The notes under the pieces were generated by a model, which worked only from the letters and a program-made list of their open reading frames with translations, had not been told where the DNA came from and did no database searches. Shown here one piece after another: positions 92-23,426 of a stretch of DNA of 23,426 nucleotides. Each line of letters begins with the position of its first letter. Within the stretch, counting starts at the first letter, position 1. Source of the stretch: a virus; the IMG/VR virus record IMGVR_UViG_3300018421_000218, positions 1 through 23,426 of that record; one strand, 5' to 3'. The translations under genes were made by a program, and so were the position numbers.

Positions 92-3000
92 ATGATACAA
101 ACGGGCTTTGAGAAGAGGGTAAAGGTTCAACAAATAATCGATAGTCAACTACCAGAATTCATACTTTCAGAAAGTCCAAAAGCATTAGATTTTCTAAAAC
201 AATATTACATATCTCAGGAATATCAGGCTGGTCCATCAGACCTGTCTGAAAATCTTGATCAATATTTGAAGTTAGATAATCTAACTACTGAAGTAATTGT
301 TGGTGAGACTACTCTTTCTTCTGGTATTTCAGCATCTGCTGATACTGTTCAGGTAGCAACAACAAAAGGGTTCCCAGCAGAGTATGGTCTCTTCAAGATT
401 GATGATGAGATTATTACCTATACTGGTATCACCACAAACTCTTTTACTGGTTGTATTAGAGGATTTAGTGGTATTACCACTTATAGAACGGACCTAAACT
501 CCGAAGAACTGCAGTTTAATACCTCAACAGCAGCATCTCATGCTACTGGAAGTTCTGTACAAAACCTCAGTACACTTTTCCTCAAAGAGTTTTATAACAA
601 ACTGAAGTATTCATTTACTCCAGGTCTTGAGAATGTTGATTTTGTATCTAATCTTGATGTTAATAATTTCATAAAAGAAGCAAGAAGTCTCTACGAATCA
701 AAGGGAACTGAGGAATCATTTAAAATTCTTTTTAAAGTTCTATATGGTAAAGAAGCTACTGTACTTGATCTCGAAAATTATTTGGTAAAACCATCTTCTG
801 CTAATTACAGAAGAAGAGAACTCATCATTGCAGAAAGAATTTCTGGAGATCCAAACAATCTAGTTGGACAAACAATTACAAAATCTACTGATTCTGAGAC
901 TAAGGCATCAGTATCTGAAGTGGAAATTTTCACTAGATCTGGTATCAGCACTTATTATAAGATTGGTCTGTTTGTTGGATTTGATGATAGAGATTTAATC
1001 GAAGGTACATTTGAAGTACAACCACAAACAAAAGTTATCGATACAGTATCTGTAGGTTCTTCAGTTATTACTGTAGACTCTACAGTGGGGTTTGCCGCTA
1101 CTGGTAGCGTTATTTCGGGAAGAAATACCATAGAATACAAATCCAAGACTGTAAACCAGTTTTTAGGGTGCACAGGTATTGGTACAGAGATTACATCCAA
1201 AACTGACCTTAGAGGCACAGAACTATTTTTTGGATACGAAAATGGAGATACCAGTAAGAAAGTAGAAATTAGAATCACAGGAGTACTGTCAAAATTTGAA
1301 CCCATTGGAGATATTAAGTCTTCAGTAGAAGGGCAAAAGGTCTACACTAAGAATGTTGGAGAAAAAATACTAAATCCAGAAACAAATAAGAGTGATAAGC
1401 AAATATTTGCTAATAGTTGGATTTACAATACAAGTTCAAGATTCCAAGTAGAAAGTGTCAGTGGTTCAACTTTCCAATTGAAATCTGATCTTGATAAGTC
1501 AAGTTTAAAAGTAGGAGATACTGTAGACATTCTTCAGGGAGATCTTGAATCTGTCCTTCATAGCGGTGCCGTTGTATCCGATATTGATTCTACGAATAAG
1601 CAAGTAATTCTTGATAATCTGTCTGGATTTACTTACAATCCAACTGTACTATACACCATTAGAAGAAAATTAAATACCGGAACCAGTAGTGGATCTTCCA
1701 TTGTTTATGGCGACAATACCATAACCAGTGATGTTCAGAATTTGTATACTGATAGTGAAGGGTATGCTTACGTTGCTTCAAACTCCATTCCATCATATAC
1801 TATTACTGAGAACACTATCAAAGCGACTATATCATCGGCAAGTGGAAATGCTATTCAAGGATATGATACAACAACGGAGAAATATTCTATTCTATCTTTC
1901 TCTAAATCAGTTCCATTCATTACTGGTGATGAGGTTTACTACACTGCGTCTGGAACTAAGTTAGTTGGTCTTTCTGAAGGTTATTACTACGTCAAAGTAT
2001 TACCTTTAAGTAACCAGATTAAATTATATGCTTCAAGATCTTTAATTATAAGTGATACTCCTGTTGAGTTTACATCTAGCAGTTCTACTGGATCACATAC
2101 ATTTACTCTCTCATCACAAAAGAGTGGTCAGATTTATCCACAAAGTTTACTTAAAAAATTCCCATTAACGAAGAATATTCAAAATGGTAAAAAAACTCCA
2201 ACCATTCCTGGTTCAACTGGAATGTTGGTAAATGGAGTTGAAATTCTTAATTATAAATCTAATGATAAGATTTACTATGGTCCTCTAGAAAGTGTTCGTT
2301 TGTATAATGGTGGAGTTAATTATGATGTGATTTCTCCACCAGTGATGGAAATTTCTGCTCCTGGTGCTGGATATACAAGCGCTCTTGTAAGACCTGTAAT
2401 TAGTGGTGATGTAAATCGTATCATAGTTGACCCGCAAAATTTTGATTTGGTTAGTGTCCAATCAGTAACCATTTCTGGTGGTAATGGAACTGGCGCTATT
2501 TTAGAACCAGTCGTAGAGACAAGATATCGTCAAATTTCTTTCGATGCTCGTTTGACTGCTGGTGGTGGTGGAATTGATGTTAATAATGATACAATTACAT
2601 TTACCTCACAACATAAGTTGAGAGATGGTGATGCTGTTGTTTATAATAGAAATGGAAATAATGCTATTGGTATAGGAACTTTTGGTGGTAGCAATGCACA
2701 CCAGAATCTATCTTTAAACAGTGGATCTGTTTATTATGCACAGTTGGTTAATAGTACATCTATTAAACTCTACAACTCTTACGATAACTACGCTGCTGGA
2801 ATTAATACAATAGGATTTACAACTACATCACAGGGTATCCATAAGTTTAGACTTTATTCAGGTAAGAAAACACTTAAAGCTATTAAAGTTATTAATCCTG
2901 GTTCTGGATATACGAATAGAAAATTAAAAGTTAAATCTGAAAACATTTCTACTGTAGAAAATACGATTAACTTTAAAAACCATGGTTTTAAGGATGGAGA

Positions 3001-6000
3001 AGATGTTGTATATACATCTGATGGAACCGCTGTAACGGGTCTTTCAACTTCTGTTAGATACAAAGTAATCAAAGTATCTAATGATACCTTTAAACTGGCA
3101 AATGCTGGCGTTGGTGGTACGAATACTACAAACTACGATAAAAAGTTATCAGCAAATATTACTGGAGTAGGAACTGGGTTCCATAATTTTGCATATCCAG
3201 ATATCACTGTTACAGTTAATGCTGAGTATGATGGAATATCTGGAGTCATCACTGCAACACCAGTTGTTAGAGGTAGCATTGTAGATCTTTACCTTTATGA
3301 AACTGGTACTGGTTATGGTTCAACTGTACTAAACTTCCACAAAAAACCAGATGTAAATATTAAGAATGGAAAAAATGCTGAGATAAAACCACTGATTTCT
3401 AATGGTTCAATAGTTTCTGTTCAAGTAACAAACAGCGGAACCGAATACTATTCGGCACCAGATTTGACCGTTAATGGTGAAGGCATTGGTGCTGTATTAA
3501 GACCAGTAGTTAGTGGTGGTAAAATTACCAATGTTGTAATCATTAATCCTGGCGTAGGATACAATCAAAATACTACTACCATTACAGTTACCCCTGCAGG
3601 TAGAAATGCATCTGTTGACGTGTCTGTTAGAGCACTTACATTGAACAATCACCATAGGTTTGGTGATGAAATTCTTTTGGATAATGGTGGTAAGTTAGAG
3701 TATGGTCTTGTTGGGTATACAACAAGTATTGGCGACAATACTTATGGTGATGATGGTATAAGCCATTCTCCAATTATTGGATGGGCATATGATGGAAATC
3801 CAATTTATGGTGCATATGGATATACAGATCCATCAGATATTAACTCTGGAATTAAAGTTCTAAGTAGTGGATATGTAACATCAACTATTGATATTTCTGA
3901 TAGACCTTCTGGTTTCCCTGCAGGTTTCTTCACTGAAGACTATAAGTTTACATCATCTGGTGATCTTGATGAGCACAATGGAAGATATGAAAAAACACCA
4001 GAATTTCCAAATGGTGTATATGCATATCATGCAAGCATTACTAGCGATGGAAAGACTCCAACATTCCCATATTTCTTGGGAGACACTTATCGCTCAATTC
4101 CACAAACTCAAAGTTTAACTCAAGAATTTGACTTTAACAATTCCAGTTTGATTAGAAACACTTTCCCATACAAAGTCGCTGATGCATATGCAAACAATGA
4201 CTTTATTTCAGAACCATATGAGACTTTATCACAGTTTGCTGTCATTGATTCTATCACAAGAGGATCTGTTGATGGTGTAATAATTAATGAGTCTGGAACT
4301 GACTATAGAGTTGGAGATATAGCATCTTTTGATAGCACTGATACCAATGGTGGTGGTCTAGAAGCATATGTAAGTAGAGTAACTGGTAAGCAAATAGTAG
4401 ACATTAACACAACAATTCAGTCATATGATCCGACAGTTCTTGTTTGGGAAAATGCAAATGAAGTGTCTGTTCACGTATCACCATCACATACTTACTTAAA
4501 CAAAGATAGTATTTCTATCTCTGGTCTTTCAACGTTTGTTTCTGGTCTAAACAAACTTCATACCATTGGTGTTACTTCAGAAAGCACAAGGATTGTATCT
4601 GAGGTTGCAGCAAATTCTACAGTTGGATTTGTAACCGACATTTTTGTACTCAATATTCCACCAACTGTTGCTGCTGGTACGACTGTTGCTATTGGAACAG
4701 AGAGAATGTCTGTTCTAGGCACATATCCAGATAATAAAGTTATTAGAGTTGTAAGAGGAATTGCTGGATCTGCACATACTGCGTTTACTGATATATTTGT
4801 ATCAACCAACAAATTTACATTACCTGTAAAGGTTCCATATTTTGACTCTGCTATTGATGATAAAGTTTTCTTCAACTCAATTCAATCGGTTGGTATAGGA
4901 ACAACTATTGGCGGATCTTCATCGAAAAGTTACTTCATTGGTAGCAGATTTTATTCAATCTCAGTTCCATTCCAAAGTATTTACTTACCCAAACACCCAT
5001 TTAAAACTGGTCAACAGGTAACGTTTGAAAGATTTGCAGGAAGTCAGGGCTTTACAGTTTCAAATACTGATACTAGTGCAACCTACTCAATTCCACAAAG
5101 TGGAAACAGTGAGACATTATTTGTAATTAAGAAATCAGACGATTATATTGGTTTGTGTACACAGGTTGGTCTCACAACAAACACAAACGGTTTGTACTTT
5201 AGAAACATAACAACAAATGGTGATAGTAGTGACTACAGATACTCACTAACTACAAATAAAACCCAAGTAACTGCAAAAGCACAAAAAACAAAAGCAAGAA
5301 TCTCCGTATCCACAGATCATTCATTAATCAATGGTGATGTTATTAAACTGACTTTAGATTCTGAGCAATCGGTTGGTATTGGAACTTCAACATCGGTATT
5401 TGTTAAGTACAACTCATCTCATGATAGATTGCTGATTAATCCTATTGGATTTAATTCAACTTCCGTTAATGCATCAACCAATGAAATTACATTAAACGAT
5501 CATGGTTTGATTACTGGTGATAAGGTGTTCTACGATGCATCTGATCTTGTTGTATCTGGACTATCAACAGGATCTTACTATGTTTACAGAATTGATGATA
5601 ATAGAATTAATCTTACCAACACATATTATGATTCAATTTCATCTCCACCATCAGTTGTAAGTTTTGCATCTACTGGTGGATCTAGTCAAGAACTTTCCAG
5701 AATAAATCCACAACTCAAAACTGTAAGAAACAATAACTTAGTTTTTGACGTTTCGGACTCCTCTCTGGATGGATACAATCTAAAACTGTTCTATGACAAT
5801 AAATTTGAAAACGAACTTGTTTCGATAGGTTCTTCAACTACTTTCACTACTTCAGGTGTCGGAACTGTTGGTGTAACAACAGGAGCAACATTTACACTGA
5901 ATTATCATGAGGATTTACCATCTAAGATATACTACCAACTCGAAAAAGGTGGTTTTATAAGCACATCTGATATTACCGTCAAAAATTATTCAGAAATATT

Positions 6001-9000
6001 ATTTGTTGAGAGCAAATATAATGGAACTTACAGTATATCTGGAATAGGTTCAACAACGTTTGACATCTCACTGTCCGGAACACCAGAGTCACTATCATAT
6101 AACCAAGGATCAACTAAGGTTCTTAAGTATTCAACATCTTCACCAAGAGCACTTGGTGGTGTAGATTCTATGAGAATTACCTTTGGTGGTTCAAATTATA
6201 AGAAACTTCCAGCTTTTGTTAGTATTGCATCAACAATTGGAACTAATGCTGATATTATTCCAACTTCGTCTACAATTGGAAGAATTAATCAAATATCGAT
6301 TAAAGATCCAGGATTTGATTTCTCTGTAGATAAAACCTTAAATCCTGAAGTTTATATTTCACCAAATATTACGGTTGTTAATAGAAATGCTATTACTGAT
6401 ATTTCTATTACATCTGGTGGTTCTGGATATACCTCAGCACCAGATATAGTTATAGTAAATCCAGCAACTGGAACTGCATATGATTCTGGTCTTGTGATTG
6501 CAAATATTCAAGGAACAGCAATAACCTCTTTAGATATTATCGAATCTCCAAGAGGACTATCTGAAGTTAAGTCCAAAGTTTACACAGTAAACAACAGTAA
6601 TGGAATTGGTATTAATAGTTGCTTCTCTTCTCCTGCAGGAGTTGTTACTTGCATATTATCAACACCTATCGCTGGTTTTACAACTGCTACAGTACCGTTT
6701 GCAACTGGAGACTTTGTATTTGTTGAGGGAGTATCACTAGCATCAACGACTGGAACTGGATTCAACTCTGCAGATTATGCTTACAATTTCTTTAAAGTAA
6801 CAGCATACAGAAATACAAATCCAGCAGAACTGGAATTTGACATATCACCATATGCTACTAATGCTGGTGTTGCAAATACTGCATTAAATTCCTTTGCATT
6901 CTTAGTTAATAAAAATAACTATCCAGTATTTGATGCAATACAGACTCCACGTTCATTCTTAATAGGTGAAAAATTATTCATTAAGTCTGGAAGAACATAT
7001 AATGAGATCGATCTTGTTATCACAGACAACCTGAATGATTCAATAAAAGTATATGGTACATATACTTTGAGTCAGGATGAGGTTATTGTTGGTCAAGATT
7101 CTGGAACTGTTGCTACAATCAAGACAATTGAAGAAAATAGAGCTATATTCAAAGTAGACTATTCACTAGAAACTGATTATGGTTGGTCTGATAATGTTGG
7201 AAAACTTAGTGAGGATTATCAAGTAATACCCGATAATGACTATTATCAAAATCTTTCATACTCAGTTAAGAGTCCTATTCAATATGAAAAATGGGTAGAT
7301 CCTGTTAATAGACTTCTACATTCTACTGGTCTGAAAAACTTTGCTGATACTGGCATCACAACAGAAGGAAGAGTTTCTGTAGCAACAAGCGAATCTTCAA
7401 AAAGCACTGCACTTATTGATATTATCTCCGAGCGTAGAGTTGATACAATTAATTTCTTTGATTTTGGTATTGATATTGATGTTCTTTCTAATAAATCAAA
7501 GTTTGTAAAACTTCAGAATAAAAAACTATCTGATTATATTGAATGTAGAACTAACAGAGTTCTTACTATTGATAACTTCAATGATCAGTTCTCAAATGCG
7601 GACGATGCAAATACAACTCCATATAAGGACATTGATAGTTTCTTTTCTAATGATGGGTATAGCAGATACTTTGTACAGATTATAAACCCATTCAACAAAG
7701 ACAGACAGTTTACTGAAATTGTTGTATTAAACACTCCAAATGATAACACAATTGTTGCTGAAAAAACTTCAGGTTATAATACTGAGGATAAACTCGGAGA
7801 ATTAGAAACCGTTACGAATACTAATGGTACTGCAGCATTAAGGTTTATTCCAGATGATCCATATAATTCTGATTATGATATTAAATTTATTAAGACCAAT
7901 TTCAATACCACTTTAGCTGGTGTTGGAACACAATCTATTGGTTTTGTTGACTTGATTAGTATTAACACAACCGTTGGTGTTGGATCTACTTCCACAGTTT
8001 ATGAAAAATTAACATCAAAGGCAGAATCTGTGTTTGCTATTGTTGAACTCACAGATACTGTAACAAAGGACAAGACCGTCGTTGATATGTTTATCAATCA
8101 TGATGGAACTAACACATATAAGTCAGAGTTCTATTTTGATAACAACTTTATTGGATTGTCCAATAACTTTATTGGAACCTTTACCTCCAATATTGATTCT
8201 GGTGTTCTTTCACTAAAATTTGAAAATACTGAGGCAAATAGTGTTCTAGTTAGATCTTCTATTGTTGGTTTTGGAACTACAGCAACTGGTATTGGAACTC
8301 ACATTTTCAAAGCATCTGGTCAACCAGATGAATCTGTAAGAGAAGGTAGACTTGAAACAAATTATACTATTTTCTCTGGAACTGGAATTTCCACAATTTC
8401 ATCATATCAGAAATCGGATGTTACTACGGTTAAGACAACTGCTAAAGTTTCTTATGGAAATACATCAGCACTACATCAAGTAGCCTTTAATCATAACAAT
8501 ACCAATTCATTCTTGATTCAATATCCATATCTTTCAGTTCAATCCCCAACTGGTATTGGTACTTTTGGTTCAGAAATTTCAGGAGACAATTTGAATCTGA
8601 TATTCTACCCAGATTCAAATATCACGGATGATATCACTATTCAGACTTACAGTGAAATTATTCAGACTGAAAAAGATTTGGATAATATTCCCGCTAAACT
8701 TTCATACGGAACTATTAACCAAAGACTTATTACCGATCAGTTTAATTCTATTAATGGAACTAGAACAAATAAGCTCGATTTTGATTTGAAACATAATGGA
8801 ACTGCAATTTTCGAGAAGCAGTTTAATCCTGGAATTTCTACAGTAGTTAATCTCTCAACTGGTGTATTCACTATTAATGAACATTTCTTCAGCACAGGAG
8901 AAAAACTAACATATACTCCAAGATCTACATTTGTTGGGGGAGCATATACATCGATGGTAATGTCCGATACCAATGTTCTTCCATCAGAAGTATATGCTAT

Positions 9001-11950: not shown

Positions 11951-11951
11951 T

Positions 11952-11959
11952 TATAAATA
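11952..11959 (+). promoter_or_regulatory. T4-type late promoter for gene 8
   Basis: TATAAATA is an exact match to the T4 late promoter -10 element and starts one base after the stop codon of the giant gene. By analogy with T4 (motif ending near -6), transcription would start near 11965, giving a leader of about 13 bases before the ATG at 11978. No Shine-Dalgarno of normal strength lies in that leader. Confidence 0.75.
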
Positions 11960-11977
11960 TAGAAAAAAGCTATCACG

Positions 11978-13525
11978 ATGGCGGCAATTGTAACAGATCA
12001 GTTTAGAATATTAAATGCGGGAAATTTTGTAGATTCCGTCACCAATTCTTCCAACTCATATTATGTTTTTGTAGGTCTATCCAATCCAACTTCTGTTGGT
12101 TTTGGTAGAACTACAAATTGGGATACCAACACTCCCAACCCTGTTGATAACTTTGATTATCAAAGTTTTGTTGGTGATAATATGTCTTTTGGTAAGAAGG
12201 TAACTTCTGCTAATGTTAGAAGACTAGTTAGAAGAATTGATTGGACTAGAGGAACGAAATATGAAATTTATCGTCATGATTATAGTCTGACGAATTTGTC
12301 TCCCATTACAAAGTCTTCAAGACTTTATGATGCAAACTATTATGTGATGAATAGTGAGTATAAGGTTTATATTTGTATTGATAATGGTTCTTCTGGAATC
12401 AATACTTCGGGAAATGCTTCTCTTGATGAACCAACATTTACAGATCTTGAACCATCAAAAGCTGGAGTAAGTGGTGATGGTTATCTTTGGAAATACTTAT
12501 ATACTGTAACACCAAGTGATATCATTAAATTCGATTCTACAGAATACATTTCTTTACCTTCTGATTGGGAAACTTCGACCGATTCTCAAATATCGGCAGT
12601 AAGAAATAATGGAGACTCGGATACAAATGAAAACCAGATAAAAAAAGTTTATATTGATTTGCAAGGTTTAGGATATTCGCAAGGTTCTCATGAGTTGAAT
12701 ATTCTTGGTGATGGAACTGGTGGTAAAGTTATAGTTGATGTTGATGCAAATGGAAAGGTAACAAATACCGTTGTATCGTCTGGCGGTAAAGGTTACACTT
12801 ATGGTATGGTCGATCTTGGATCGATTAATTCAAGTTCTTCAATTAAAGCAAAATTAATTCCTATTATTCCCCCATCTAAAGGTCATGGGTATAATATTTA
12901 CAAAGAACTTGGAGCCGACAAGGTTTTAGTTTATGCACGTTTTGATGATTCTACCAGAGATTTTCCAACTGATGTTATCTTTTCCCAAATTGGTGTAGTT
13001 AAGAATCCAACCTCAATTGGATCTACTAACGTATTTACTGAAAATCAGTTCTCATCTCTTGGTGCTATTAAATTCTCATCTGTTACTGGAACAGTAACTA
13101 TTGGTGATAAGATAAGTCAGTCTGTTACTGGTGGTACAGCAAAAGGTTATGTAGCTTCATATGATTCAGAGACTAAAGTTCTGAAGTATTTCCAAGACAG
13201 AAATTCTTTCCTGAATCAGACATATTTTGATTCTACAGACTATGTTGGTGTTTCTACAAACGCCAAACTTTATTCATTCGCTTCAAATGCAAATGCAGTA
13301 ACAACAACTGGAGGATTTTCTGGTTCTATTGATACTGGATTTACTGGTATTAGTACAAATCCAACTGGAAACAAACTAATTTCACTTGGAACCCAGTTTA
13401 CAAATGGGGTTGCTAATCCTGAGATAAATAAAGGGTCGGGAGACATTGTATATCTTGATAATCGTCCCGTAATCACCAGAAATTCTAGACAAAAAGAAGA
13501 CGTTAAAATTATCCTGGAATTCTAA
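11978..13525 (+). CDS. 8: Baseplate wedge protein gp8
   Basis: This 515-residue protein is a T4 gp8 homologue. Matches recalled from T4 gp8, in order, are AIVTxxFR at the N-terminus, RRIDW (T4: RRDW), EYKVYICIDN (T4: VYRCLDV), GDGYLWKYLYTV (T4: GDGYVWEYLFEI), EYI(S/V), and the whole C-terminus GDIVYLDNRPVI ... KEDVKIILEF (T4: GEMIYMENRPPI ... EEINILFTF). gp8 is a dimeric wedge protein that binds gp7, gp10 and gp6. At 515 residues it is about 180 longer than T4 gp8 (334). The extra length includes a GxGY module (about 225-280) and a module near 365-410 (VTIGDKISQSVTGGTAKGYV) of the type seen in its giant neighbours. It has its own late promoter at 11952. The gene ends 3 bases before the next ATG. 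Confidence 0.95.
   Translation: MAAIVTDQFRILNAGNFVDSVTNSSNSYYVFVGLSNPTSVGFGRTTNWDTNTPNPVDNFDYQSFVGDNMSFGKKVTSANVRRLVRRIDWTRGTKYEIYRHDYSLTNLSPITKSSRLYDANYYVMNSEYKVYICIDNGSSGINTSGNASLDEPTFTDLEPSKAGVSGDGYLWKYLYTVTPSDIIKFDSTEYISLPSDWETSTDSQISAVRNNGDSDTNENQIKKVYIDLQGLGYSQGSHELNILGDGTGGKVIVDVDANGKVTNTVVSSGGKGYTYGMVDLGSINSSSSIKAKLIPIIPPSKGHGYNIYKELGADKVLVYARFDDSTRDFPTDVIFSQIGVVKNPTSIGSTNVFTENQFSSLGAIKFSSVTGTVTIGDKISQSVTGGTAKGYVASYDSETKVLKYFQDRNSFLNQTYFDSTDYVGVSTNAKLYSFASNANAVTTTGGFSGSIDTGFTGISTNPTGNKLISLGTQFTNGVANPEINKGSGDIVYLDNRPVITRNSRQKEDVKIILEF
13423..13430 (+). promoter_or_regulatory. Possible internal late promoter before the DUF4815 gene
   Basis: GATAAATA lies inside the end of gene 8, about 100 bases before the next start codon. 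The 12 bases CTGAGATAAATA (13419-13430) are repeated exactly at the promoter of the fibre gene (21543-21554). It is in coding sequence (codons for PEINK), so chance is possible. If active, it would give the 7-kb downstream gene its own transcript. Confidence 0.35.
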
Positions 13526-13528
13526 AAA

Positions 13529-16500
13529 ATGCCACAGAAAACGAATCTCAATATAAACCCTTATTATGACGATTTTGATAAGGGCGATAACTTTTACAAA
13601 GTTTTATTTAAACCAGGATTTCCTGTACAGGCTAGAGAGTTAACGTCTCTACAGTCTATCTTACAGAACCAAATTGAATCATTTGGTAGTCATATTTTTA
13701 AAGAAGGATCTATGGTTATCCCTGGAGGGGTAACCTTTGATGCTAATTACAATTCTGTAAAATTAAACTCAGACCACTTTGGTATAGGAGTTAGAAATTA
13801 TGCAGACAAATTGGTTGGTAAGCGTCTAAGAGGTCAAACCTCTGGAGTTGTTGCAATAGTTGATAAATGGGCAGATATTTCGGAAGTTGATGATATCACC
13901 AATCTTACACTATTTGTAAAATACTTAGATGCCAATAATGCAGGTGAGGTAGTTACATTCAGTGATGGTGAAATTCTTATCACTGAAGAAAGTTTTACAT
14001 ATGGTAACACAACCATTGGTTCTGGAGAATCGATTGCATCTCTAATAACGGAAAATGCAACTGCAGTTGGTACTGCAGTAGGAATATCTGATGGCGTTTA
14101 CTTTATTAGAGGAACTTTTGTAGACGTATCTAAGCAAAAGATTGTTCTTGATGCTTATAGAGCAGATTCATCTTACAGAGTTGGTCTAACAATTTTAGAG
14201 GAGATTATAACTGCTAAGGATGATCCTTCTCTGTATGATAATGCGAAAGGTTATTCAAACTATGCAGCACCAGGTGCTGATAGACTAAAAATTTCACTCA
14301 CATTATCTAAGAAACTGTTGGGTGATTATGATGATAAGACTTTCGTAGAACTACTTAGAGTTGAAAATGGTGAAATAAAGAAACTAGTAACCAAATCGGA
14401 TTATGATATTATTGGAGATTATATTGCCCAAAGAACATATGACGAATCTGGAAACTACGCTCTGAATGAATTTGGACTAGTAGTAAGTGAATCTTTAAAT
14501 AATGGTCTTTCTAATGGCGGAGTTTTTAAGAAAGAACAAAGTACAGATCAAGGAAATACACCTTCCGACAATCTTTTAGCAGTAAAAGTTTCTCCAGGAA
14601 AAGCATACGTCAAAGGGTATGATATTGATACCATTTCGACTACCATTCTGGATATAGAAAAACCTAGAGATAAGAAATCAATTGCATCATCATTAGTTCC
14701 ATTTGAATTTGGAACATTAATCAGAGTTAATAATGTCCAGGGTACACCAGTACTTGGCGTTAACAATAACTCCAATATAGTTAGATTGCAAAATAGAAGA
14801 AGAGGAACATCTACCACTGCTGCTACTGGAACTGAAATTGGTCAGGCAAGAGTCTATACTTTTGGGTTGACCGATTCAGCATACTCCAACGACTCAACAG
14901 AATGGGATTTGTATTTGTTTGATATTCAGACATACACTAAGATTACTCTAAATGAGACTGTAACGACCGCAGAAGTTCCAGCTAGTTCTTATATCAGAGG
15001 AGTAAGTAGTGGAGCGTCTGGATACGTTACAACTGCCCCTGGTGGAAGCAATTTACTAACACTCATACAAACATCTGGTACGTTCATTGTTGGTGAGCAA
15101 ATTCTCATCAATGAAAGTTCAGAAGTCTCTAGATCTATTAAAATAGTCCAGACTTACGGCATTCAGGATGTAAAATCAATATACCAAAATTCTGATAGTA
15201 TTGATGCCGATCTTCAAGTAGACTTTATTGCAGATACATCCCTACAAAAGACATTACCTAAAAACTTTGGTATTGCCGATACGATTAGAATCACAACCGG
15301 TGGTAACGTAACCTGTCCAGGTAAAAACTTTGTAGGTATTAAAAGTGATACTATTATTAGATATCAACTACCAGGGACTTCTGAAGAAACATTCAATAGA
15401 GTAGTCAGTGTAAACTCTGATAACAGTATGACCGTTGCTGCGGTTGAAGATGTTACTGGAGTTTGTGATGGTGGTCTTCCAGGATCTACTGCAGATGTTA
15501 CATTTGCACTGGGAGTTCCATCGGCGTATGATAAGGGTGGTTTATTTGCTCCATTAGAAGAACAAAATGTTTCTTCAGTGAATCTTGCAGGTTCAAACTT
15601 ACTAGTATCGAGTCAGATTAAAACTCAAAGTACTAGTTCCACAGGTTCTCTGACAATTAACGTTTCTTCCACTGGAATTAGTAGTGCATTTTTTGAGACT
15701 TTTGATTCCGAAAGATATAGTGTTTTCTATTCAGATGGAACTGTTGAGGATCTAACATCCGATCAGGTTACTTTAGGATCTAACGGTCAGACGATTACAT
15801 TTGAAGGTCTAACCGCTTCTCAATCCAGCAACGTTACAGTTAATACAACTGTTAAGAAGAACTCTATCACAAGTAAGACAAAAACATTTACAAGAAGTGA
15901 AAAGGTAAACATTACTAATAGCAATTCTGGTGTTTCTACTGCTATTAATGGATTAACAAAATCTGATTATTATGGAACTAGAGTTGAAGATAAAGAAATT
16001 TGCCTCAACTTCCCAGATGTTGTAGAAGTTTTAGCAGTTTATGAGTCTTTTGGATCATCAACACCAACACTTGATTCTATTGAGTTACCTTCCGGTCTTT
16101 CCTTAGATACAAATTCAATTCTTGGAGAAAGAGTAGTTGGTTCTACCAGTGGTGCTATAGCACAAGTTGTTACTAGATCCTCTGCTACAAAGGTAGAGAT
16201 TGTTTATCTAAACGCCAGTAAATTTGTTATTGGTGAAGTTGCTACTTTTGAAGACTCATCTATAATATCAACTATTCAAGCAGTAAATTCTGGAAACTAC
16301 CAGGATATTACGAATAAATTTACTTTAGATAAAGGTGTTAAAGATCAATATTATGATTACTCCAAACTTGTTAGAGTAAATGGTAATTATATTCCATCAC
16401 ACAAATTACTAGTAATCTTTAATCACTATACAATTCCATCTAATGATTCCGGTAATCTATACACAGTAAATTCATATACTGCTGATAGATACAAGACTGA

Positions 16501-19500
16501 TATTCCGCTGACTTCTAGTGGATTAAGATCGTCAGACACTCTCGACTTTAGACCAAGAGTAGCACAGTTTACTTCCACATCATCTTCGCCATTTGATTTT
16601 GCAAGTAGAACATTTGCAACCACTGGAACTAATCCAACTTTAGTAGTTACTCCAGGTGAAAGTTCTCTTATTGGGTATGATTTTTATCTACCAAGAATTG
16701 ATAAAGTTGTACTCAACAAAGAAGGTGCATTTAGTGTAATTAAAGGTTCTTCTGCAGTAAATCCAAAAGTACCATCTCATGGTGAAGATGCTATGGAAAT
16801 CGGTACATTGTACCTTCCAGCATATGTCTACAACACAAGAGACATAGAAATTACTCTTGTGGATAATAGAAGATATACTATGAGAGATATTGGAAAGATT
16901 GAGGATAGAGTTGAGAATCTTGAGACTGTAACCTCACTTTCACTGCTGGAACTTAGCACTCAGACTTTACAAGTTAGAGATGTTGATGGTCTAGATCGTT
17001 ATAAGTCTGGGTTCTTTGTTGATGACTTTAAAGACATTGATAGATTGGATGCGACAGAATCTTCAGTAAATATTGATACACTATCTAGTACTCTGATTAG
17101 CCCATTAGATTTCTATTCTCTAACTCCACAACTTTCACTGGACCCATCAATAGATGTTGATACTGCAGATTTTAGTCAAAATTTAAGTCTTCTTGATAGC
17201 AATGTTCAAAAAACTGGTAATCTAGTTACTCTAAAATATACTGAAAAATCTTGGATTGAGCAGCCATTAGCAACTAGAGTTGAAAATGAAAATCCATTTA
17301 ATATGATTTCTTTTAATGGAAGCGTAACTCTGAATCCATCATCTGATAGTTGGGTAAGAACAGTTGTTGTTCAGGGTGAAAGAACCGTTAGAGTGGAAAG
17401 TCTAGGATTGGTAAGAGGTGATAGTACAGTAACCTATACCCTCTCATCTACAACTGCTGATCCGCTTATTCGCTCAAGAAACGTAATGTTTACTGCTATT
17501 AATTTAAGACCTCTAGCAAGACACTACGCTTTCTTTGATAGCACAAGTGGTATTGATTTTGTTCCAAAACTCATTGAGATTTCAATGACCAATGGAGCAT
17601 TTAGAATTGGTGAAACTATAAGAGGATATATTGGTGATGCAAATGTATTCACATGCAGAGTAGCTCCACCAAACCATAAAACTGGACCATACAATAATCC
17701 TTCAACTACTTATTCATTAAATCCATATGATAAGTCAGTTACTCTTCCACAAGCATACTCAGCATCTTCAACTGTTCTGAACGTAGACATTCAAGGACTT
17801 CAGGAACAAGTTCTTGGAAAATATAGTGGATATGTTTCTAAAGGTATGGTTATACTAGGTGAGACAAGCAAAGCTCAAGCAACAGTTACTGATGTTAGAC
17901 TTTTTGCCGATACTTTTGGTGATATTATTGGATCTATATTCTTCCAAGATCCATATGCACGTCCAACACCTCTACTGACATTTGAAAGTGGAACTAAGAC
18001 TCTAAGACTTACCTCAAGTTCCACTAATGAAACTCCACTTCCAGGAAGTTTGCTTATCAGTAGTGGAGAAGGTACATACACGACAAGTGGTACAATTAAT
18101 ACACTCACCAGAACTGTTGAGGTTCTTTATTATGATCCTCTGGCGCAATCCTTTACAGTCGATGAAACTGGTGCATTCTTGACCAGCGTTGATGTATTTT
18201 TTGCAAATAAGGATGATAATGAAAAGTTATTGGTTGAACTAAGAACTGTTGAGTTGGGAACCCCAACACTCCGTCTTGTAAATGAATATGCTCAGGTCAC
18301 ATTAGATCCTTCTCAGATTAAAACATCCAAAGATGCTTCCGTAGCAACTAAAATTACTTTCCCATCACCAATTTATCTGGAACCAGGCACTGAGTATGCT
18401 TTAGTTCTACTCTCACCATTCTCAGATCTTTATGAGGTATGGATTGCTAGAATGGGTGAAAGAACAGTTAATACTACAAATCTACCAGATGCCGAAAGTG
18501 TAATTGCTACTAAGCAATATACTGGAGGAAGTTTGTTCAAGTCTCAAAATGGTTCCATTTGGACTACAGACCAATTTGAAGATATGATGTTTAAGTTGTA
18601 TAAAGCAAACTTCACTACAACATCTGGTGTTGCATACTTCTACAACCCTTCTCTAGGAACTGTAGATAACAATGTAGCGAAGTTGGGTGAAAATCCTGTT
18701 AAGACTTTACCAAGAAAGTTGAAGGTTGGCATTACAACAACTACCGCAATGGATTCTATTCTTACTGTTGGTAGAAAGGTATCTGATAGCACTTCAGCAT
18801 CCGCTGTTAATGGATATATTGAGAAGGTTGGCGGAAAACTCAATACAGTATCTGTAAACAGAGTTGGTGCTGGATACAGTGATGGAACATTCACTGATGT
18901 TCCACTTTATTCAATAACTGGAAATGGTAGTGGTGCTACTGCATCAATCACATTTGCTAGTGGTCTAGTATCTGGAACTCCTACAATAACAATTCCAGGA
19001 AATGGATATGTTGTTGGTGATATTCTGGGAATTACTACTTCAAGCGTTACTAAGGGTAAAAATGCTCAAATTTCTGTTGCAACTCTAAACGGAAAAGATA
19101 CATTATATCTAACCAATGTTCAGGGTGAAGAATTTACTGCCGAACAGGATTTGGTTTATTACAGCACAACAAATACTGCTGTATCGTGTGCTAATACTGA
19201 TATTCTTTCATCTTCGGTCATCAGTAATCTGTATGATGGAAGGGTTCTGGAAGTAACTCAAAGTAATCATGGAATGCACGCAGACAACAATATAGTTGTC
19301 CTAGCAAATCTTCAACCAAATACAATTCCAACAACTCTTAATGCAAATTTGGGTATTAATGATACCACAATTTCTGTTGCTAACACTTCGCTGTTTGCAA
19401 ACTTTGAAGGAATTACAACTTCTAGAGGATACCTAAAGGTAAATAATGAAATCATCTACTACAATTCAATCATTGCTGGTAGTGCAGGTGCTGGAACACT

Positions 19501-20575
19501 TGGAATTGGAACTAGAGGTGTTGATAACACTACCATAAGACAGCACTCTATTAACGATTCGGTTTATACTTATGAACTGAATGGTATTTCCTTAACTAGA
19601 ATCAATACACAACACAATCTACCATCAGACACTGCTCTAAAATCTAAGAGAGATTTTGATACTTATCATTTACAAATTAGTAGAGGATCTAGAACTTCTG
19701 GAGATGGGCAGGTAAGTTTCAAAGATGAAAATTCTCTTGGTGGAGTTAATGCGGCAGCATCAATGAATGTTCAGTTCAATACTATTGAACCACTGTTTGA
19801 CCTATTGAATCCTGGAGAAACTACAAGTATCAGTTCACAAATCAGAACTGTTTCTGCAACAAGTGCTGGTGGATCTGAAGTTTCGTTTATTGATCAGGGT
19901 TATGAGTCAGTTGAACTGAATAATAATAACGAACTGACTACAACAAGACTCGTTGCTTCTCAAGTCAACGAGACAAATAGACTTACAAGTCTACCAAAGA
20001 ATAGGTCCTTTACAATTGGACTTACTATGAATTCTTCTGATCCAAATCTATCTCCAGCAATAAATGCTTCTAATGCAACGATTGTCTACGGCAGAAATAG
20101 ACTTAATAGTCCAATAAGTGATTATGCATTTGATGGTAGAGTTAATCTATCACAAGAAGATCCTCACACCGCTGTTTATGTTACAAATAGAGTTGATTTA
20201 GAACAACCAGCAACCTCGCTTAAGGTTCTAGTTTCTTCTTACAGACACTCTTCTGCAGACTTTAGAGTTCTCTATCAATTATTCAGAGCAGACTCTAACC
20301 AAGTTGAACAAGCATATGAATTGTTCCCAGGATATGATAACCTCACCGATACCAATGGTGATGGATATGGTGACTCAGTTGTTGATTCCACATTGAATAA
20401 TGGAAGACCAGACGCATTTGTTCGCTCAAGTAATGAAGGTGAATTTTTAGAATATCAGTTCAGTTCTGATGAACTTGAACAGTTCATTGGTTTTAAAATT
20501 AAGATTGTTATGAGTGGAACTAATGAAGCAAGAGCACCAAGATTTAAAGATTTGAGAGTTATTGCTTTAGCATAA
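13529..20575 (+). CDS. DUF4815-type giant virion structural protein (outer baseplate / fibre connector)
   Basis: This 2348-residue protein lies where T4 has genes 9 and 10. Its N-terminus (YYDDFDKGDNFYKVLFKPG, then QARELTSLQSILQNQ, FGSHIFKEGSMVIPGG, and AVKVSPGKAYVKGYDID near 350) is typical of the DUF4815 family of phage structural proteins. Later landmarks are DTLDFRPRV (1003-1010), a helical stretch GKIEDRVENLE (1122-1132), RYKSGFFVDDF (1157-1167), YYDPLAQSF (1534-1542), a GxGY module near 1780, a DDE/RG-like module (1935-2020), a Ca-loop-like DTNGDGYGD (2274-2282) and the end PRFKDLRVIALA. No enzyme motif is visible. It probably links the wedge to fibres; that role is inferred from gene order. 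It starts 3 bases after gene 8 with no clear Shine-Dalgarno, so translation is likely coupled. Confidence 0.85.
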   Translation: MPQKTNLNINPYYDDFDKGDNFYKVLFKPGFPVQARELTSLQSILQNQIESFGSHIFKEGSMVIPGGVTFDANYNSVKLNSDHFGIGVRNYADKLVGKRLRGQTSGVVAIVDKWADISEVDDITNLTLFVKYLDANNAGEVVTFSDGEILITEESFTYGNTTIGSGESIASLITENATAVGTAVGISDGVYFIRGTFVDVSKQKIVLDAYRADSSYRVGLTILEEIITAKDDPSLYDNAKGYSNYAAPGADRLKISLTLSKKLLGDYDDKTFVELLRVENGEIKKLVTKSDYDIIGDYIAQRTYDESGNYALNEFGLVVSESLNNGLSNGGVFKKEQSTDQGNTPSDNLLAVKVSPGKAYVKGYDIDTISTTILDIEKPRDKKSIASSLVPFEFGTLIRVNNVQGTPVLGVNNNSNIVRLQNRRRGTSTTAATGTEIGQARVYTFGLTDSAYSNDSTEWDLYLFDIQTYTKITLNETVTTAEVPASSYIRGVSSGASGYVTTAPGGSNLLTLIQTSGTFIVGEQILINESSEVSRSIKIVQTYGIQDVKSIYQNSDSIDADLQVDFIADTSLQKTLPKNFGIADTIRITTGGNVTCPGKNFVGIKSDTIIRYQLPGTSEETFNRVVSVNSDNSMTVAAVEDVTGVCDGGLPGSTADVTFALGVPSAYDKGGLFAPLEEQNVSSVNLAGSNLLVSSQIKTQSTSSTGSLTINVSSTGISSAFFETFDSERYSVFYSDGTVEDLTSDQVTLGSNGQTITFEGLTASQSSNVTVNTTVKKNSITSKTKTFTRSEKVNITNSNSGVSTAINGLTKSDYYGTRVEDKEICLNFPDVVEVLAVYESFGSSTPTLDSIELPSGLSLDTNSILGERVVGSTSGAIAQVVTRSSATKVEIVYLNASKFVIGEVATFEDSSIISTIQAVNSGNYQDITNKFTLDKGVKDQYYDYSKLVRVNGNYIPSHKLLVIFNHYTIPSNDSGNLYTVNSYTADRYKTDIPLTSSGLRSSDTLDFRPRVAQFTSTSSSPFDFASRTFATTGTNPTLVVTPGESSLIGYDFYLPRIDKVVLNKEGAFSVIKGSSAVNPKVPSHGEDAMEIGTLYLPAYVYNTRDIEITLVDNRRYTMRDIGKIEDRVENLETVTSLSLLELSTQTLQVRDVDGLDRYKSGFFVDDFKDIDRLDATESSVNIDTLSSTLISPLDFYSLTPQLSLDPSIDVDTADFSQNLSLLDSNVQKTGNLVTLKYTEKSWIEQPLATRVENENPFNMISFNGSVTLNPSSDSWVRTVVVQGERTVRVESLGLVRGDSTVTYTLSSTTADPLIRSRNVMFTAINLRPLARHYAFFDSTSGIDFVPKLIEISMTNGAFRIGETIRGYIGDANVFTCRVAPPNHKTGPYNNPSTTYSLNPYDKSVTLPQAYSASSTVLNVDIQGLQEQVLGKYSGYVSKGMVILGETSKAQATVTDVRLFADTFGDIIGSIFFQDPYARPTPLLTFESGTKTLRLTSSSTNETPLPGSLLISSGEGTYTTSGTINTLTRTVEVLYYDPLAQSFTVDETGAFLTSVDVFFANKDDNEKLLVELRTVELGTPTLRLVNEYAQVTLDPSQIKTSKDASVATKITFPSPIYLEPGTEYALVLLSPFSDLYEVWIARMGERTVNTTNLPDAESVIATKQYTGGSLFKSQNGSIWTTDQFEDMMFKLYKANFTTTSGVAYFYNPSLGTVDNNVAKLGENPVKTLPRKLKVGITTTTAMDSILTVGRKVSDSTSASAVNGYIEKVGGKLNTVSVNRVGAGYSDGTFTDVPLYSITGNGSGATASITFASGLVSGTPTITIPGNGYVVGDILGITTSSVTKGKNAQISVATLNGKDTLYLTNVQGEEFTAEQDLVYYSTTNTAVSCANTDILSSSVISNLYDGRVLEVTQSNHGMHADNNIVVLANLQPNTIPTTLNANLGINDTTISVANTSLFANFEGITTSRGYLKVNNEIIYYNSIIAGSAGAGTLGIGTRGVDNTTIRQHSINDSVYTYELNGISLTRINTQHNLPSDTALKSKRDFDTYHLQISRGSRTSGDGQVSFKDENSLGGVNAAASMNVQFNTIEPLFDLLNPGETTSISSQIRTVSATSAGGSEVSFIDQGYESVELNNNNELTTTRLVASQVNETNRLTSLPKNRSFTIGLTMNSSDPNLSPAINASNATIVYGRNRLNSPISDYAFDGRVNLSQEDPHTAVYVTNRVDLEQPATSLKVLVSSYRHSSADFRVLYQLFRADSNQVEQAYELFPGYDNLTDTNGDGYGDSVVDSTLNNGRPDAFVRSSNEGEFLEYQFSSDELEQFIGFKIKIVMSGTNEARAPRFKDLRVIALA

Positions 20576-20576
20576 T

Positions 20577-20780
20577 ATGGAAAGAGTTGAAGGGCATAAG
20601 CATCTGTATCGAAATGATTCAGGTGCTATTGTAAATACCAATACTGCAGATTATTTGCAGTATGTTAAGATGAGAGCAGACAAAAAACGTCAAAGAGAAG
20701 AAATTGATCAGATAAAAGAAGATATTAGTGAAATTAAAACCCTACTTATGGAGATCATCAATGGACCCAGACAAAATTGA
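20577..20780 (+). CDS. Small coiled-coil protein, unknown function
   Basis: This 67-residue protein has an N-terminal part (VEGHKHLYRNDSGAIVNTN) that looks like a short strand-turn unit. It then has a basic stretch (KMRADKKRQRE) and a regular helix with Ile/Leu spaced 3-4 apart (IDQIKEDISEIKTLL), which predicts a coiled coil. Small proteins of this shape are common in T4-like marine phages, but I do not know a function. It starts one base after the stop of the 2348-residue protein and ends inside the next gene, so it is likely co-translated with both. An assembly-helper role, like T4 gp57A for fibres, is only a guess. Confidence 0.75.
   Translation: MERVEGHKHLYRNDSGAIVNTNTADYLQYVKMRADKKRQREEIDQIKEDISEIKTLLMEIINGPRQN
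20750..20753 (+). promoter_or_regulatory. Shine-Dalgarno deciding the start at 20761
   Basis: GGAG lies 7 bases before ATG 20761, inside the preceding coding sequence. It favours this start over the in-frame GTG at 20728, which would add 11 residues and enlarge the overlap. Confidence 0.6.
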
Positions 20781-20940
20781 ACTAGAAACAATGAGCAAAA
20801 TGTTTGAGTATGAAAAATGTTCTCGCCTAATTGACGATTTAGATATTGATGAACTAAAAAACTTTGCTAAGTCTTACTTTAAATTATATCTCAAGCAACA
20901 AGAAGTGATCAAGAATTTTGCTATCTCTGGTTTAGCATAA
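20761..20940 (+). CDS. Small helical protein, unknown function
   Basis: This 59-residue protein starts MDPDKIELETMSKMFEYEK and continues with an acidic, helical sequence (LIDDLDIDELKNFAKSYFKLYLKQQEVIKNF). It overlaps the previous gene by 20 bases in another frame. A longer form from GTG 20728 is possible but has no ribosome binding site that I can see. Pattern and size match small conserved proteins next to baseplate genes in marine T4-like phages; no function is known to me. Its stop codon lies within the late promoter of the next unit (20936-20943). Confidence 0.8.
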   Translation: MDPDKIELETMSKMFEYEKCSRLIDDLDIDELKNFAKSYFKLYLKQQEVIKNFAISGLA

Positions 20941-20943
20941 ATA
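20936..20943 (+). promoter_or_regulatory. Late promoter overlapping the stop codon of the 59-residue gene
   Basis: CATAAATA is a one-base variant of the T4 late element. The TAA stop of the upstream gene (20938-20940) is part of it. The predicted start is near 20949, about 15 bases before the ATG at 20964. The spacing agrees with the other late promoters in the window. Confidence 0.65.
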
Positions 20944-20963
20944 CTTCTAAAGACCACTTAGAA

Positions 20964-21302
20964 ATGTCTGTCTACGTTAGTAATATTGCAATTAATGGCG
21001 GAACTGACTTCAATCAAGTATTCACTCTAGAAAATTCCGCCACAAATTCCGCCTTAAATTTGACTGGATACGGCGTTAATGCTCAGATGAGAAAGCACGC
21101 CAGTGCTACGGGTGTTACGACATTTACTGCAGCAATAACTAATGCTTCCTTAGGGCAAATTAGAATTGGTTTGTCAACAACACAAACAGCAAGTCTTAAA
21201 GAAGGTAGATACGTTTATGATGTTGTAATTACAGATACTGCCTCAACAATGACAAGAGTTGTTGAGGGAATGGTACTAGTAAGCAAAGGAGTTACTCGCT
21301 AA
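20964..21302 (+). CDS. BppU-N-like virion structural protein
   Basis: This 112-residue protein shows the pattern of the N-terminal domain of baseplate upper proteins (BppU_N type): an entry strand with FNQVFTLEN, then LNLTGYGVNAQMRKH, a central strand pair with FTAAITNASLGQIRIGLS, then LKEGRYVYDVVITD and a closing VVEGMVLVSKG. In that family the domain is an immunoglobulin-like sandwich that joins receptor-binding proteins to the baseplate. Here it stands alone, without the C-terminal part of lactococcal BppU. The gene is first in a two-gene unit behind a late promoter. Its stop shares one base with the next ATG (TAATG). The domain call is by pattern; the baseplate role is inferred. Confidence 0.65.
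   Translation: MSVYVSNIAINGGTDFNQVFTLENSATNSALNLTGYGVNAQMRKHASATGVTTFTAAITNASLGQIRIGLSTTQTASLKEGRYVYDVVITDTASTMTRVVEGMVLVSKGVTR
21285..21291 (+). promoter_or_regulatory. Shine-Dalgarno of the 77-residue gene
   Basis: AAAGGAG, 10 bases before ATG 21302 and inside the upstream gene, is the best ribosome binding site in this part of the window. Confidence 0.6.
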
Positions 21303-21535
21303 TGGCAAACATTAGAGTTAGGGTAGGGCAACAAGATGGTATTAAAATTGTTGCCTCAAATAAATCTGTAGCATCCACAAAAATAGAAAATGCTCCAGAT
21401 GTAAACACTGGTGCTAGGACAACAAACACATTTTTAATGTTTAATGGAACTGAATATGTACATGTGCCAGCATCCCAGATATTAGATCTTGGTGATGGTA
21501 CTTCTGATGGAGAACTCGACTACGGGTCATTCTAA
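21302..21535 (+). CDS. Small virion-associated protein, unknown function
   Basis: This 77-residue protein begins MANIRVRVGQQDGIKIV, continues with a polar middle (NAPDVNTGARTTNTFLMFNGTEYVHV) and ends DGELDYGSF. The middle looks like a short display segment with strand FLMFNGTEYV. The last residues (DYGSF) nearly repeat the end of the next protein (DGGSF). The one-base overlap with the BppU-like gene suggests that both products are made in step. I do not recognise a named family; a small fibre or baseplate adaptor is the likeliest guess from context. Confidence 0.7.
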   Translation: MANIRVRVGQQDGIKIVASNKSVASTKIENAPDVNTGARTTNTFLMFNGTEYVHVPASQILDLGDGTSDGELDYGSF

Positions 21536-21546
21536 ACTTTTTCTGA

Positions 21547-21554
21547 GATAAATA
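21547..21554 (+). promoter_or_regulatory. Late promoter of the fibre-like gene
   Basis: GATAAATA lies 30 bases before the ATG at 21577, with a predicted start near 21560 and a leader of about 17 bases. A purine-rich AAAGG (21561-21565) ending 11 bases before the ATG may serve for ribosome binding. Confidence 0.65.
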
Positions 21555-21576
21555 CATAAAAAAGGTAAATTAAAAG

Positions 21577-23280
21577 ATGGCTGCTCCTGTTCTACAGTTT
21601 AAAAGGGGTGTTTTAGCTAATCTCCCAGCATTAAGGGCAGGTGAACCCGGTTTTACAACCGACAAATATGATTTATACGTTGGTATCGATTCTACCACTG
21701 CTAATAATCAATTTGTAGGTTCTGGAAGATATTGGACCGTTAATAGTGCTACAACAGGTTCCGGTGTTAACCTTGTCGAAGGCACAGATAATGGAACTTC
21801 TTATATCACACTAAAATCTCCAAACAGTCTTGCTGGTATTGTTACTTATACAATGCCAGGAACTGATGGTTCCAGCGGAGATGTTTTAAAAACTGATGGT
21901 TCTGGTAACTTATCATTCTCAGCACCAGCATCATCAAGCTTTACGCTTTCTGCAGATTCTGGGTCCGATGATACTTTCAATACAGGTGAAACATTAACGT
22001 TTACTGGTGGTGAAGGTATTGATACTACAGTAAGCGATAATACTATTACTATCGCAGGTGAAGATGCATCTGATACTAATAAGGGTATTGCGTCATTTGA
22101 TTCTGGAGATTTTTCAGTTACTTCTGGTAATGTAACTCTTGCCGATAGCGCTACTGGTGCTGTTATTACTATCAGTGGAACTGCTAATGAGGTAAACGTA
22201 TCCAGAAGCAATGGAACAGTAACCGTTGGTCTTCCTGATGATGTAACCGTTGGTGGTGGTTTGACTGCTACTACACTCACTCTTGCAGGTATTGCTGTCA
22301 CTGCAATCCTCGATGAGGATGACATGGTTTCGGACAGAGCAGATGCTCTGGCGACTCAACAATCTATCAAGGCATATGTTGACTCACAAGTAACGGCACA
22401 AGACTTAGATTTTAGTGGTGATAGTGGAACTGGTGCAGTTGATCTTGATTCACAAACTCTTTCAATTAGTGGAACTTCAAACGAAATTGTAACTAGTGCT
22501 TCTGGTCAAACTATTACAATTAGTCTTCCCGATGAAGTTACTATTGGTGATTCTATAACAGTAACTAAAGATGCTTCCGTTGGTAGTGCTCTTACTGTAA
22601 CAGGTGCAGCCGACTTCAATGGTGGTCTTGATGTTTCTGGCGCAGAAACCACACTTTCTTCTGCTACAGTTAGTGACCTAACTTCTGGTCGTGTCGTTCT
22701 TGCTGGTACTTCTGGTGCTCTTGAGGACAGTGGAAACCTCACATTCGACGGCACAACTTTGACCGTAACTGGTTCAGCTGCTGTTGATAACGTAACTATT
22801 GACGGCAACACAGTTTCAACGTCTTCTGGTGGTTTAACTCTCGATTCGACTTCTGGAACAACAACGGTTGCTGATGACCTGACTGTTAATGGAACTCTGA
22901 CCGTTCTTGGTTCCCAGTCCATCATCAACACTGAGACTCTGAAAGTTGAAGACTCTCTGATTGAAGTTGGTCTGGTCAACTCTGGCGGTTCTCTGGTTCC
23001 CCCATCATCCGATGCTAACATTGACGTTGGTGTTGTTCTACACTACTACAGTGGTTCTGCTAAGACCGCTGCAATGTTCTGGGACGATAGTGCTGGAAGA
23101 GTTGTTGTTGCTTCTGACGTAAGTGAATCGTCAAGTGTAATGACGATTACAACTTATGCTAATCTTGAGATTGGAGCACTGACCGTAACTGACTGCCAAG
23201 GAAATAACCAAGCAGTTATTACTTGCAGTGGCTCAACAAGAACGTTAGAAAATATCACTATCGACGGTGGTTCGTTCTAG
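21577..23280 (+). CDS. Tail fibre-like structural protein with Mtd-type N-terminus
   Basis: This is a 567-residue protein. Residues 1-50 (LQFKRG, LPALRAGEPGFTTDKYDLYVG) match the Mtd_N-type domain found at the start of many phage fibre and tropism proteins. Residues 120-350 are low-complexity beta repeats, with two related units beginning at D190 and D282. Residues 420-510 (VNGTLTVLGSQSIINTETL, then IEVGL, DVGVVLHYY and AAMFWDDSAGRVV) form a block common in marine phage fibres. The C-terminus is ENITIDGGSF. No chaperone or peptidase domain is visible. It is probably a trimeric fibre that reaches toward the host. The last ~200 codons use CTG, AAC, GAC and ACC far more than the rest of the window. 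The gene has its own late promoter and is followed by a terminator. Confidence 0.8.
   Translation: MAAPVLQFKRGVLANLPALRAGEPGFTTDKYDLYVGIDSTTANNQFVGSGRYWTVNSATTGSGVNLVEGTDNGTSYITLKSPNSLAGIVTYTMPGTDGSSGDVLKTDGSGNLSFSAPASSSFTLSADSGSDDTFNTGETLTFTGGEGIDTTVSDNTITIAGEDASDTNKGIASFDSGDFSVTSGNVTLADSATGAVITISGTANEVNVSRSNGTVTVGLPDDVTVGGGLTATTLTLAGIAVTAILDEDDMVSDRADALATQQSIKAYVDSQVTAQDLDFSGDSGTGAVDLDSQTLSISGTSNEIVTSASGQTITISLPDEVTIGDSITVTKDASVGSALTVTGAADFNGGLDVSGAETTLSSATVSDLTSGRVVLAGTSGALEDSGNLTFDGTTLTVTGSAAVDNVTIDGNTVSTSSGGLTLDSTSGTTTVADDLTVNGTLTVLGSQSIINTETLKVEDSLIEVGLVNSGGSLVPPSSDANIDVGVVLHYYSGSAKTAAMFWDDSAGRVVVASDVSESSSVMTITTYANLEIGALTVTDCQGNNQAVITCSGSTRTLENITIDGGSF
22144..22608 (+). repeat. Two related repeat units in the fibre-like protein
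   Basis: Unit 1 starts at D190 (DSATGAV, ISGTANEV, GTVTVGLPDDVTVGG) and unit 2 at D282 (DSGTGAV, ISGTSNEI, GQTITISLPDEVTIGD). Each goes from a D-S-x-T-G-A-V start through I-S-G-T-x-N-E to L-P-D-(D/E)-V-T-(V/I)-G. A stretch of about 45 residues that contains AILDEDDMVSDRADALATQQSIKAYVDSQV lies between them; it is helical and could be a coiled-coil knob in the shaft. Confidence 0.65.
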
Positions 23281-23294
23281 TATTAACTAGACAT

Positions 23295-23302
23295 TATAAA
23301 TA
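23295..23302 (+). promoter_or_regulatory. Late promoter set against the terminator
   Basis: TATAAATA is an exact match to the T4 late element, one base before the left arm of the terminator hairpin. With the T4 geometry, transcription would start near 23308, inside the left arm, and read into the gene at 23339 with a leader of about 31 bases. Confidence 0.7.
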
Positions 23303-23303
23303 T

Positions 23304-23329
23304 AGGTGGGCATTGTCCCACCTTTTTTT
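23304..23329 (+). terminator. Intrinsic terminator after the fibre-like gene
   Basis: A 7-bp perfect stem (AGGTGGG at 23304-23310 with CCCACCT at 23317-23323), a 6-base loop (CATTGT) and a run of seven T (23323-23329) make a classical Rho-independent terminator. It should stop transcripts coming from the fibre gene. Confidence 0.9.
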
Positions 23330-23338
23330 GTATCAACT

Positions 23339-23426
23339 ATGAATGAAACTGATTATAGAAGTCTGATTCTTGTTTATCAACAAAAGTCATCAGATCTGTT
23401 TTCTCAGACTGTTGCTTTAGAAGCGA
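23339..23426 (+). CDS. N-terminal end of a helical protein (partial)
   Basis: From ATG 23339 the frame is open to the window edge for 29 codons (starts MNETDYRSLILVYQQKSSD, then LFSQTVALEA). It looks helical, and the start resembles small coiled-coil proteins of marine T4-like phages that lie before the neck genes, but that is recalled, not tested. There is no Shine-Dalgarno; the bases before the ATG are the tail of the terminator. An ATG at 23343 is in another frame that closes quickly. Confidence 0.6.
   Translation, partial: MNETDYRSLILVYQQKSSDLFSQTVALEA

Follow-up and report, generated by a model that had tools for sequence, protein, structure and literature searches.

A late promoter box at fixed register with a terminator stem at the tail fibre/gp13 junction of T4-like phages, a probable border between late units

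Introduction

Late promoters of phage T4 carry TATAAATA at positions -13 to -6 (PMC1524935), have no conserved -35 element and are AT-rich in the bases just after the box (PMC2988020), while CTAAATA is the late box of the Aeh1 type (PMC1524935). That a late start can lie inside the 5′ arm of a hairpin is already established in T4 for hairpins at ribosome sites, with the starts at gene e and I-TevI freeing these sites (PMC2988022, PMC3014915). A literature search found no description of a promoter placed within a terminator, a weak absence given that subscription journals lay mostly outside the search. Here we describe such an arrangement at the junction between a tail-fibre-like gene and a gp13 unit.

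Gene content and anatomy of the junction

The window, that is the whole stretch of DNA analysed, covers 23.4 kb of a viral record and has T4-like virion genes on its + strand. ORFs on this strand include a baseplate wedge protein (phrog_438) and a 2348-aa ORF, and the small proteins of the window include a homologue of an L-shaped-tail-fibre-assembly protein. One structural ORF of 3952 aa (92-11950) takes up half of the window. The features of the junction and of the gene leading into it are as follows.

21547-21554, + strand: GATAAATA, probable late promoter of the fibre-like gene (intergenic, same strand as the gene)
21577-23280, + strand: tail-fibre-like virion structural gene, 567 aa (ORF; phrog_18186/phrog_697; S-B05 DNA match)
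23295-23302, + strand: TATAAATA late promoter box, -13 to -6 in T4 numbering (read directly; conserved in relatives)
23304-23310, + strand: left arm of the terminator stem, AGGTGGG (23304-23307 upstream of the predicted start)
23308, + strand: predicted transcription start (+1) from T4 spacing, the first G of GGG within the left arm
23311-23316, + strand: terminator loop, CATTGT (3-7 nt in relatives)
23317-23323, + strand: right arm of the terminator stem, CCCACCT (read directly; terminator scan)
23323-23329, + strand: T-tract of 7 T (3′ ends of fibre transcripts predicted at 23326-23330)
23339-23426, + strand: start of the next gene, MNETDYRSLILVYQQK, with its ATG read, running off the window (73 aa in the related locus L003)

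On direct reading a single T at 23303 separates the box from the stem, and the preliminary description, which had placed the box one base before the stem, is exact to the base (box 23295-23302, stem from 23304). Its naming of the upstream ORF as a fibre gene is also reasonable, this gene having phrog tail and structural matches and a DNA match to the 'tail fiber-like protein' of S-B05. The arithmetic by which transcription would begin near 23308, lose AGGT and keep 3 bp of stem is correct provided that T4 spacing applies.

In L003, where the same junction is kept, the 73-aa gene is followed by homologues of gp13, gp14, gp15 and gp16, numbers which were assigned from the P-SSM2 and S-SM2 records together with gene position. 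The order gp13-gp14-gp15 is annotated likewise in both of these phages. The L003 gp13 has 75-77% identity to gp13 of AG-345-L05 and of Synechococcus phage S-SRM01, and the phage was therefore grouped with the Kyanoviridae-type T4-like phages.

Late promoter box and terminator

The exact T4-type late box TATAAATA (T/A at the first base) is present at the junction, and with the T4 box at -13 to -6 the +1 is predicted at 23308. The raw count of ATAAATA in the window shows no enrichment, and the evidence for late promoters is therefore that of position, strand and conservation. NATAAATA occurs five times on the + strand and not at all on the - strand, four of the five sites being in gaps that precede genes, with gaps making up 4% of the window. 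In a related 76-kb contig (G001) the strand ratio is 23:0, and 18 of the 23 sites touch non-ORF DNA, which is 12% of that contig. Evidence for the late sigma factor comes from the contigs of relatives, the window itself being a 23-kb fragment: gp55 family matches of ~3e-67 or better were identified in four contigs bearing the promoter-terminator composite, G001, G002, G004 (L033) and G008 (L068).

The six bases past the junction box, TAGGTG, hold three GC, more than at most TATAAATA sites of these genomes (mean 1.2-1.8). Taken with the AT-richness of this region in T4, this suggests that the junction promoter may be weak or of modest strength. The predicted +1 is a purine (G or A) in each of the 40 composites, which is uninformative because the left arms are purine-rich.

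The hairpin has the form of an intrinsic terminator, with a 7-bp stem including 5 GC pairs followed directly by 7 T, and was the top-ranked forward terminator of a scan of 3500-23426. Hairpin and tail together have a predicted energy of -11.0 kcal/mol (z -3.85). When a terminator was defined as a perfect 7-bp stem, five or more of its pairs GC, followed by 6 T, the window held one, against none in 200 dinucleotide shuffles (both strands), and the same was found for the promoter-terminator composite (one against none in 200, both strands). A chance match is ruled out by these shuffles (0/200) and by the conservation of the register across relatives. Read on the reverse strand the hairpin scores too, its tail there being AT-rich. 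The possibility of a bidirectional terminator was considered and rejected, as no role was seen for it: the window is without a reverse-strand late motif and the junction genes are all forward.

Conservation of the register in related phages

At least 53 of the 80 related loci keep the promoter-stem register, and they do so at the same tail fibre/gp13-unit junction. A search which did not require the stem, selecting 44 distinct junctions by 'late motif + T-run + small ORF', found it at the fixed register in 41. A scan of a viral collection, permitting 0-30 bases between box and stem, gave 69 distinct pairs of ATAAATA with an RGGTRGG terminator among the matches listed; 24 of these have a spacing of exactly one base, with no other spacing above six pairs. 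All 24 one-base pairs among the matches listed have TATAAATA and resemble this junction. As to whether related phages keep the spacing from promoter to stem, a point raised in the preliminary description, the answer is yes (24 of the 69 listed at one base, others at most 6).

Around this constant register the stem letters and flanks vary, as do the distance from fibre stop to motif (13-32), the loop (3-7), the distance from stem to ATG (5-18) and the stem length (7-10). With AGGT or GGGT stems one base lies between box and stem, while with AGGGG stems the last A of the box doubles as the first stem base. All 38 junction elements have TATAAATA as their box, or AATAAATA where the stem is of the AGGGG type, in a list found through an ATAAATA search and hence biased towards the box. 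Pairing is kept through changes in the stem in 33 elements, pair 1 being A-T, G-T or G-C and pair 5 G-C or A-T; perfect pairing in elements detected by their stem is biased by detection, and the analysis was repeated on the 44-junction set without the stem requirement. Pair 1 falls within the outer four pairs, before the predicted start, and therefore can matter only in RNA arriving from upstream. The hairpin thus appears to be kept for read-in RNA.

More than 3 Mb of DNA from T4-like phages was surveyed, with 249 distinct terminators. Ahead of a stem, ATAAATA stands 40 times at the junction register and at most twice at any other position, except for 8 cases at -19, which are a second box copy in some of these same elements. 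Most of the 40 represent a single homologous junction, so that independent origins are few. As a rule the terminator comes first and the promoter second, the box beginning 4-16 bases past the stem (at least 27 cases, 3 in T4), while the order promoter then terminator is nearly confined to the junction register. RNA started from a box placed 5-30 bases before a terminator would be expected to stop there, a self-termination that the junction element would avoid. The second NATAAATA stands 18 bases before the main box and often arises from the fibre stop codon (TGATAAATAA); it was seen in L020 (7991-8010), L043, L048, L049, L029-L031, L071, L206, L211, L219, L228 and L241. A start there should give the full hairpin, immediate termination and a short RNA.

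A number of variants were read by eye. L006 has CTAAATA running into the stem at much the same register, and L052 has a terminator and then CTAAATA. L065 and L070 have a terminator and TATATAAGGGG but lack a consensus box; a box without a GC-rich stem is found in L066, L072, L073 and L080, and neither box nor stem in L036 and L076-L078. In phages with the same gp13 and another fibre family, the fibre stop often abuts the small gene and both box and stem are missing. The element therefore follows the 3′ end of the fibre gene and is not required for the gp13 unit in general. The element at the fixed register is absent from the complete isolates T4, Syn9, S-SM2, S-SRM01, S-SKS1 and HTVC008M.

Similar elements at other sites

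A second stem family, AGGGGR, has spacing 0 in 12 of 98 distinct elements, with up to 10 elements at other single spacings. Independent recurrence of the design through these stems was rejected, there being no clear spacing peak, and only member families are suggestive. One comprises N-ATAAATA directly before AGGGGG-loop-CCCCCT and a T-tract, seen at L424 8169, L468 726, L412 211, L453 9156 and, on the reverse strand, L484 2884. In L424, L468, L453 and L484 an hsp20-like gene comes before the gap that holds it, and what follows is a 267-269-aa protein in L424, L468, L412 and L453 and a different gene in L484. This site is a possible second conserved junction of the same design.

In the S-PM2 record (L203, 115176-115200), GATAAATA runs into ACCTCC-ATAT-GGAGGT-TTTTT before a RusA-like gene. 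Its right arm is a Shine-Dalgarno sequence, which would be freed by a start at the predicted base, and this element may combine the roles of a terminator-type and a ribosome-site hairpin. S-PM2 and S-T4, both cultured phages, carry less strict forms of the element away from the fibre junction, in S-T4 at about 101204 on the minus strand. On the reverse strand of G001, at 62847, AATAAATA is followed by CCCATAGGTGAAACTTATGGG and ATG, with a hairpin that has no T-tract. This hairpin, also predicted to be broken by the late start, looks like a translational version.

Discussion

We propose that the junction element probably separates two late transcription units as a one-way border. RNA polymerase arriving from the fibre gene would transcribe the whole hairpin and T-tract and terminate at about 23326-23330. 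Host RNA polymerase with a gp55-type late sigma factor of the phage would recognise TATAAATA at 23295-23302 and, going by T4 spacing, start within the left arm, near 23308. The new RNA would have no AGGU and could form only a GGG/CCC stem, with ACC between it and the T-tract. It would thus be expected to escape termination and enter the small coiled-coil gene and the gp13-gp16 unit, and the gain for the phage might be that fibre and neck/terminase genes are dosed separately. In the window a start at 23308, taken from T4 spacing, changes the predicted hairpin from -11.0 to -3.4 kcal/mol. A start 6 nt past the box weakens the stem in 40 of 40 composites, from -8.7 to -16.2 kcal/mol down to 0 to -7.8 kcal/mol; the L071 and L214 variants have a 5-bp residual stem of -7.1 to -7.8 kcal/mol. 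The 5′ ends, termination and read-through at the junction are all predicted here from sequence.

It is unlikely that the terminator works alone, with TATAAATA decayed or little used and the gp13 unit served by read-through or by other promoters. A decayed promoter would fit the GC-rich initial region after the box and the many relatives with another fibre family in which the small gene directly follows the fibre stop and no promoter lies between. However, box and spacing are fixed in 38 of 38 elements from the ATAAATA search while neighbouring bases and flank lengths change, and a box that is constant at a fixed spacing is unlike an unused one, which would drift. The converse, that only the promoter matters and that hairpin and T-tract are a stabiliser or processing site for the 3′ end of the fibre mRNA, is quite unlikely in our estimation. 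Termination and protection of a 3′ end by a hairpin and T-tract look alike at the level of sequence, but the canonical terminator form with 7 T and a z of -3.85 speaks for the former. In addition, the terminator precedes CTAAATA in L052 and several relatives have no hairpin, so the promoter does not need the hairpin.

The adjacency could also serve recycling, in which polymerase released at the terminator is held by the gp45 clamp and restarts at the box some 30 bases back, the disarming of the hairpin being a by-product. Late polymerase tethered by gp45 has been modelled to resume scanning after termination (PMC7892883), and in E. coli polymerase remains bound to the DNA once it has terminated, with a possible new start at a sense promoter close by (PMC6978322). 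Recycling is nevertheless very unlikely as the main explanation, as the common terminator-then-promoter order already gives such adjacency, and the exact register of promoter before stem is explained only by disarming. Least probable, and in our view extremely unlikely, is a role in translation, with the hairpin of read-in RNA shutting off the next gene. The geometry is shared with T4 gene e and I-TevI, and in the S-PM2 element at 115176 the right arm GGAGGT stands ~9 nt before the RusA start codon. In the window, in contrast, with CCCACCT as the right arm and 15 nt from stem to ATG, ribosome site and start codon are left exposed, and a tract of 7 T would be superfluous for such a role.

If the one-way border is real, it amounts to a very compact, 35-base insulator at which RNA from upstream ends and new RNA of the same orientation begins, with insulation set by the position of the start site within the stem. 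For marine T4-like phages it would offer a sharp and cheap test of where late transcription starts, and it would be a simple design part for separating consecutive genes. More tentatively, and with doubt outweighing confidence, there might be a conserved class of such borders, in which the start of a late promoter erases the left arm of its own terminator, maybe with restart of a clamp-tethered polymerase, and which is reused at fibre/gp13, downstream of hsp20, at S-PM2 nrdB/rusA and at S-T4 to decouple late units.

Comparison with known systems

The 8-base box, strand bias and intergenic position are shared with T4 late promoters (PMC2988020, PMC1524935), and gp55 is found in relatives; the junction element differs in being GC-rich just after the box, where T4 late promoters are AT-rich. 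Terminator-then-promoter borders of T4-like phages likewise end one unit and start the next within a short gap. In these ordinary borders the T-tract often runs into TATAAATA (at least 27 cases, 3 in T4) and the promoter, coming after the terminator, needs no trick, whereas the junction element reverses the order.

The closest likeness is to T4 gene e, soc, I-TevI and segB and to Aeh1 mobE, where late RNA likewise starts in or after the 5′ arm of a hairpin (PMC2988022, PMC3014915). Those promoters are of the gp55 type and only the longer read-in RNA forms the hairpin, as predicted here, where T4 spacing puts the late start inside the 5′ arm. The hairpins of these systems hide a ribosome-binding site, the hallmark of the class, and act on translation; no hidden ribosome-binding site was found at the junction in the window, where the hairpin is instead a predicted intrinsic terminator whose action would be on transcription, at the boundary of two late units. 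A T4 principle would, if this is true, have been carried over from translation to transcription termination, and the comparison supports well the view that the junction element is a new form of the late-start-in-hairpin trick of T4.
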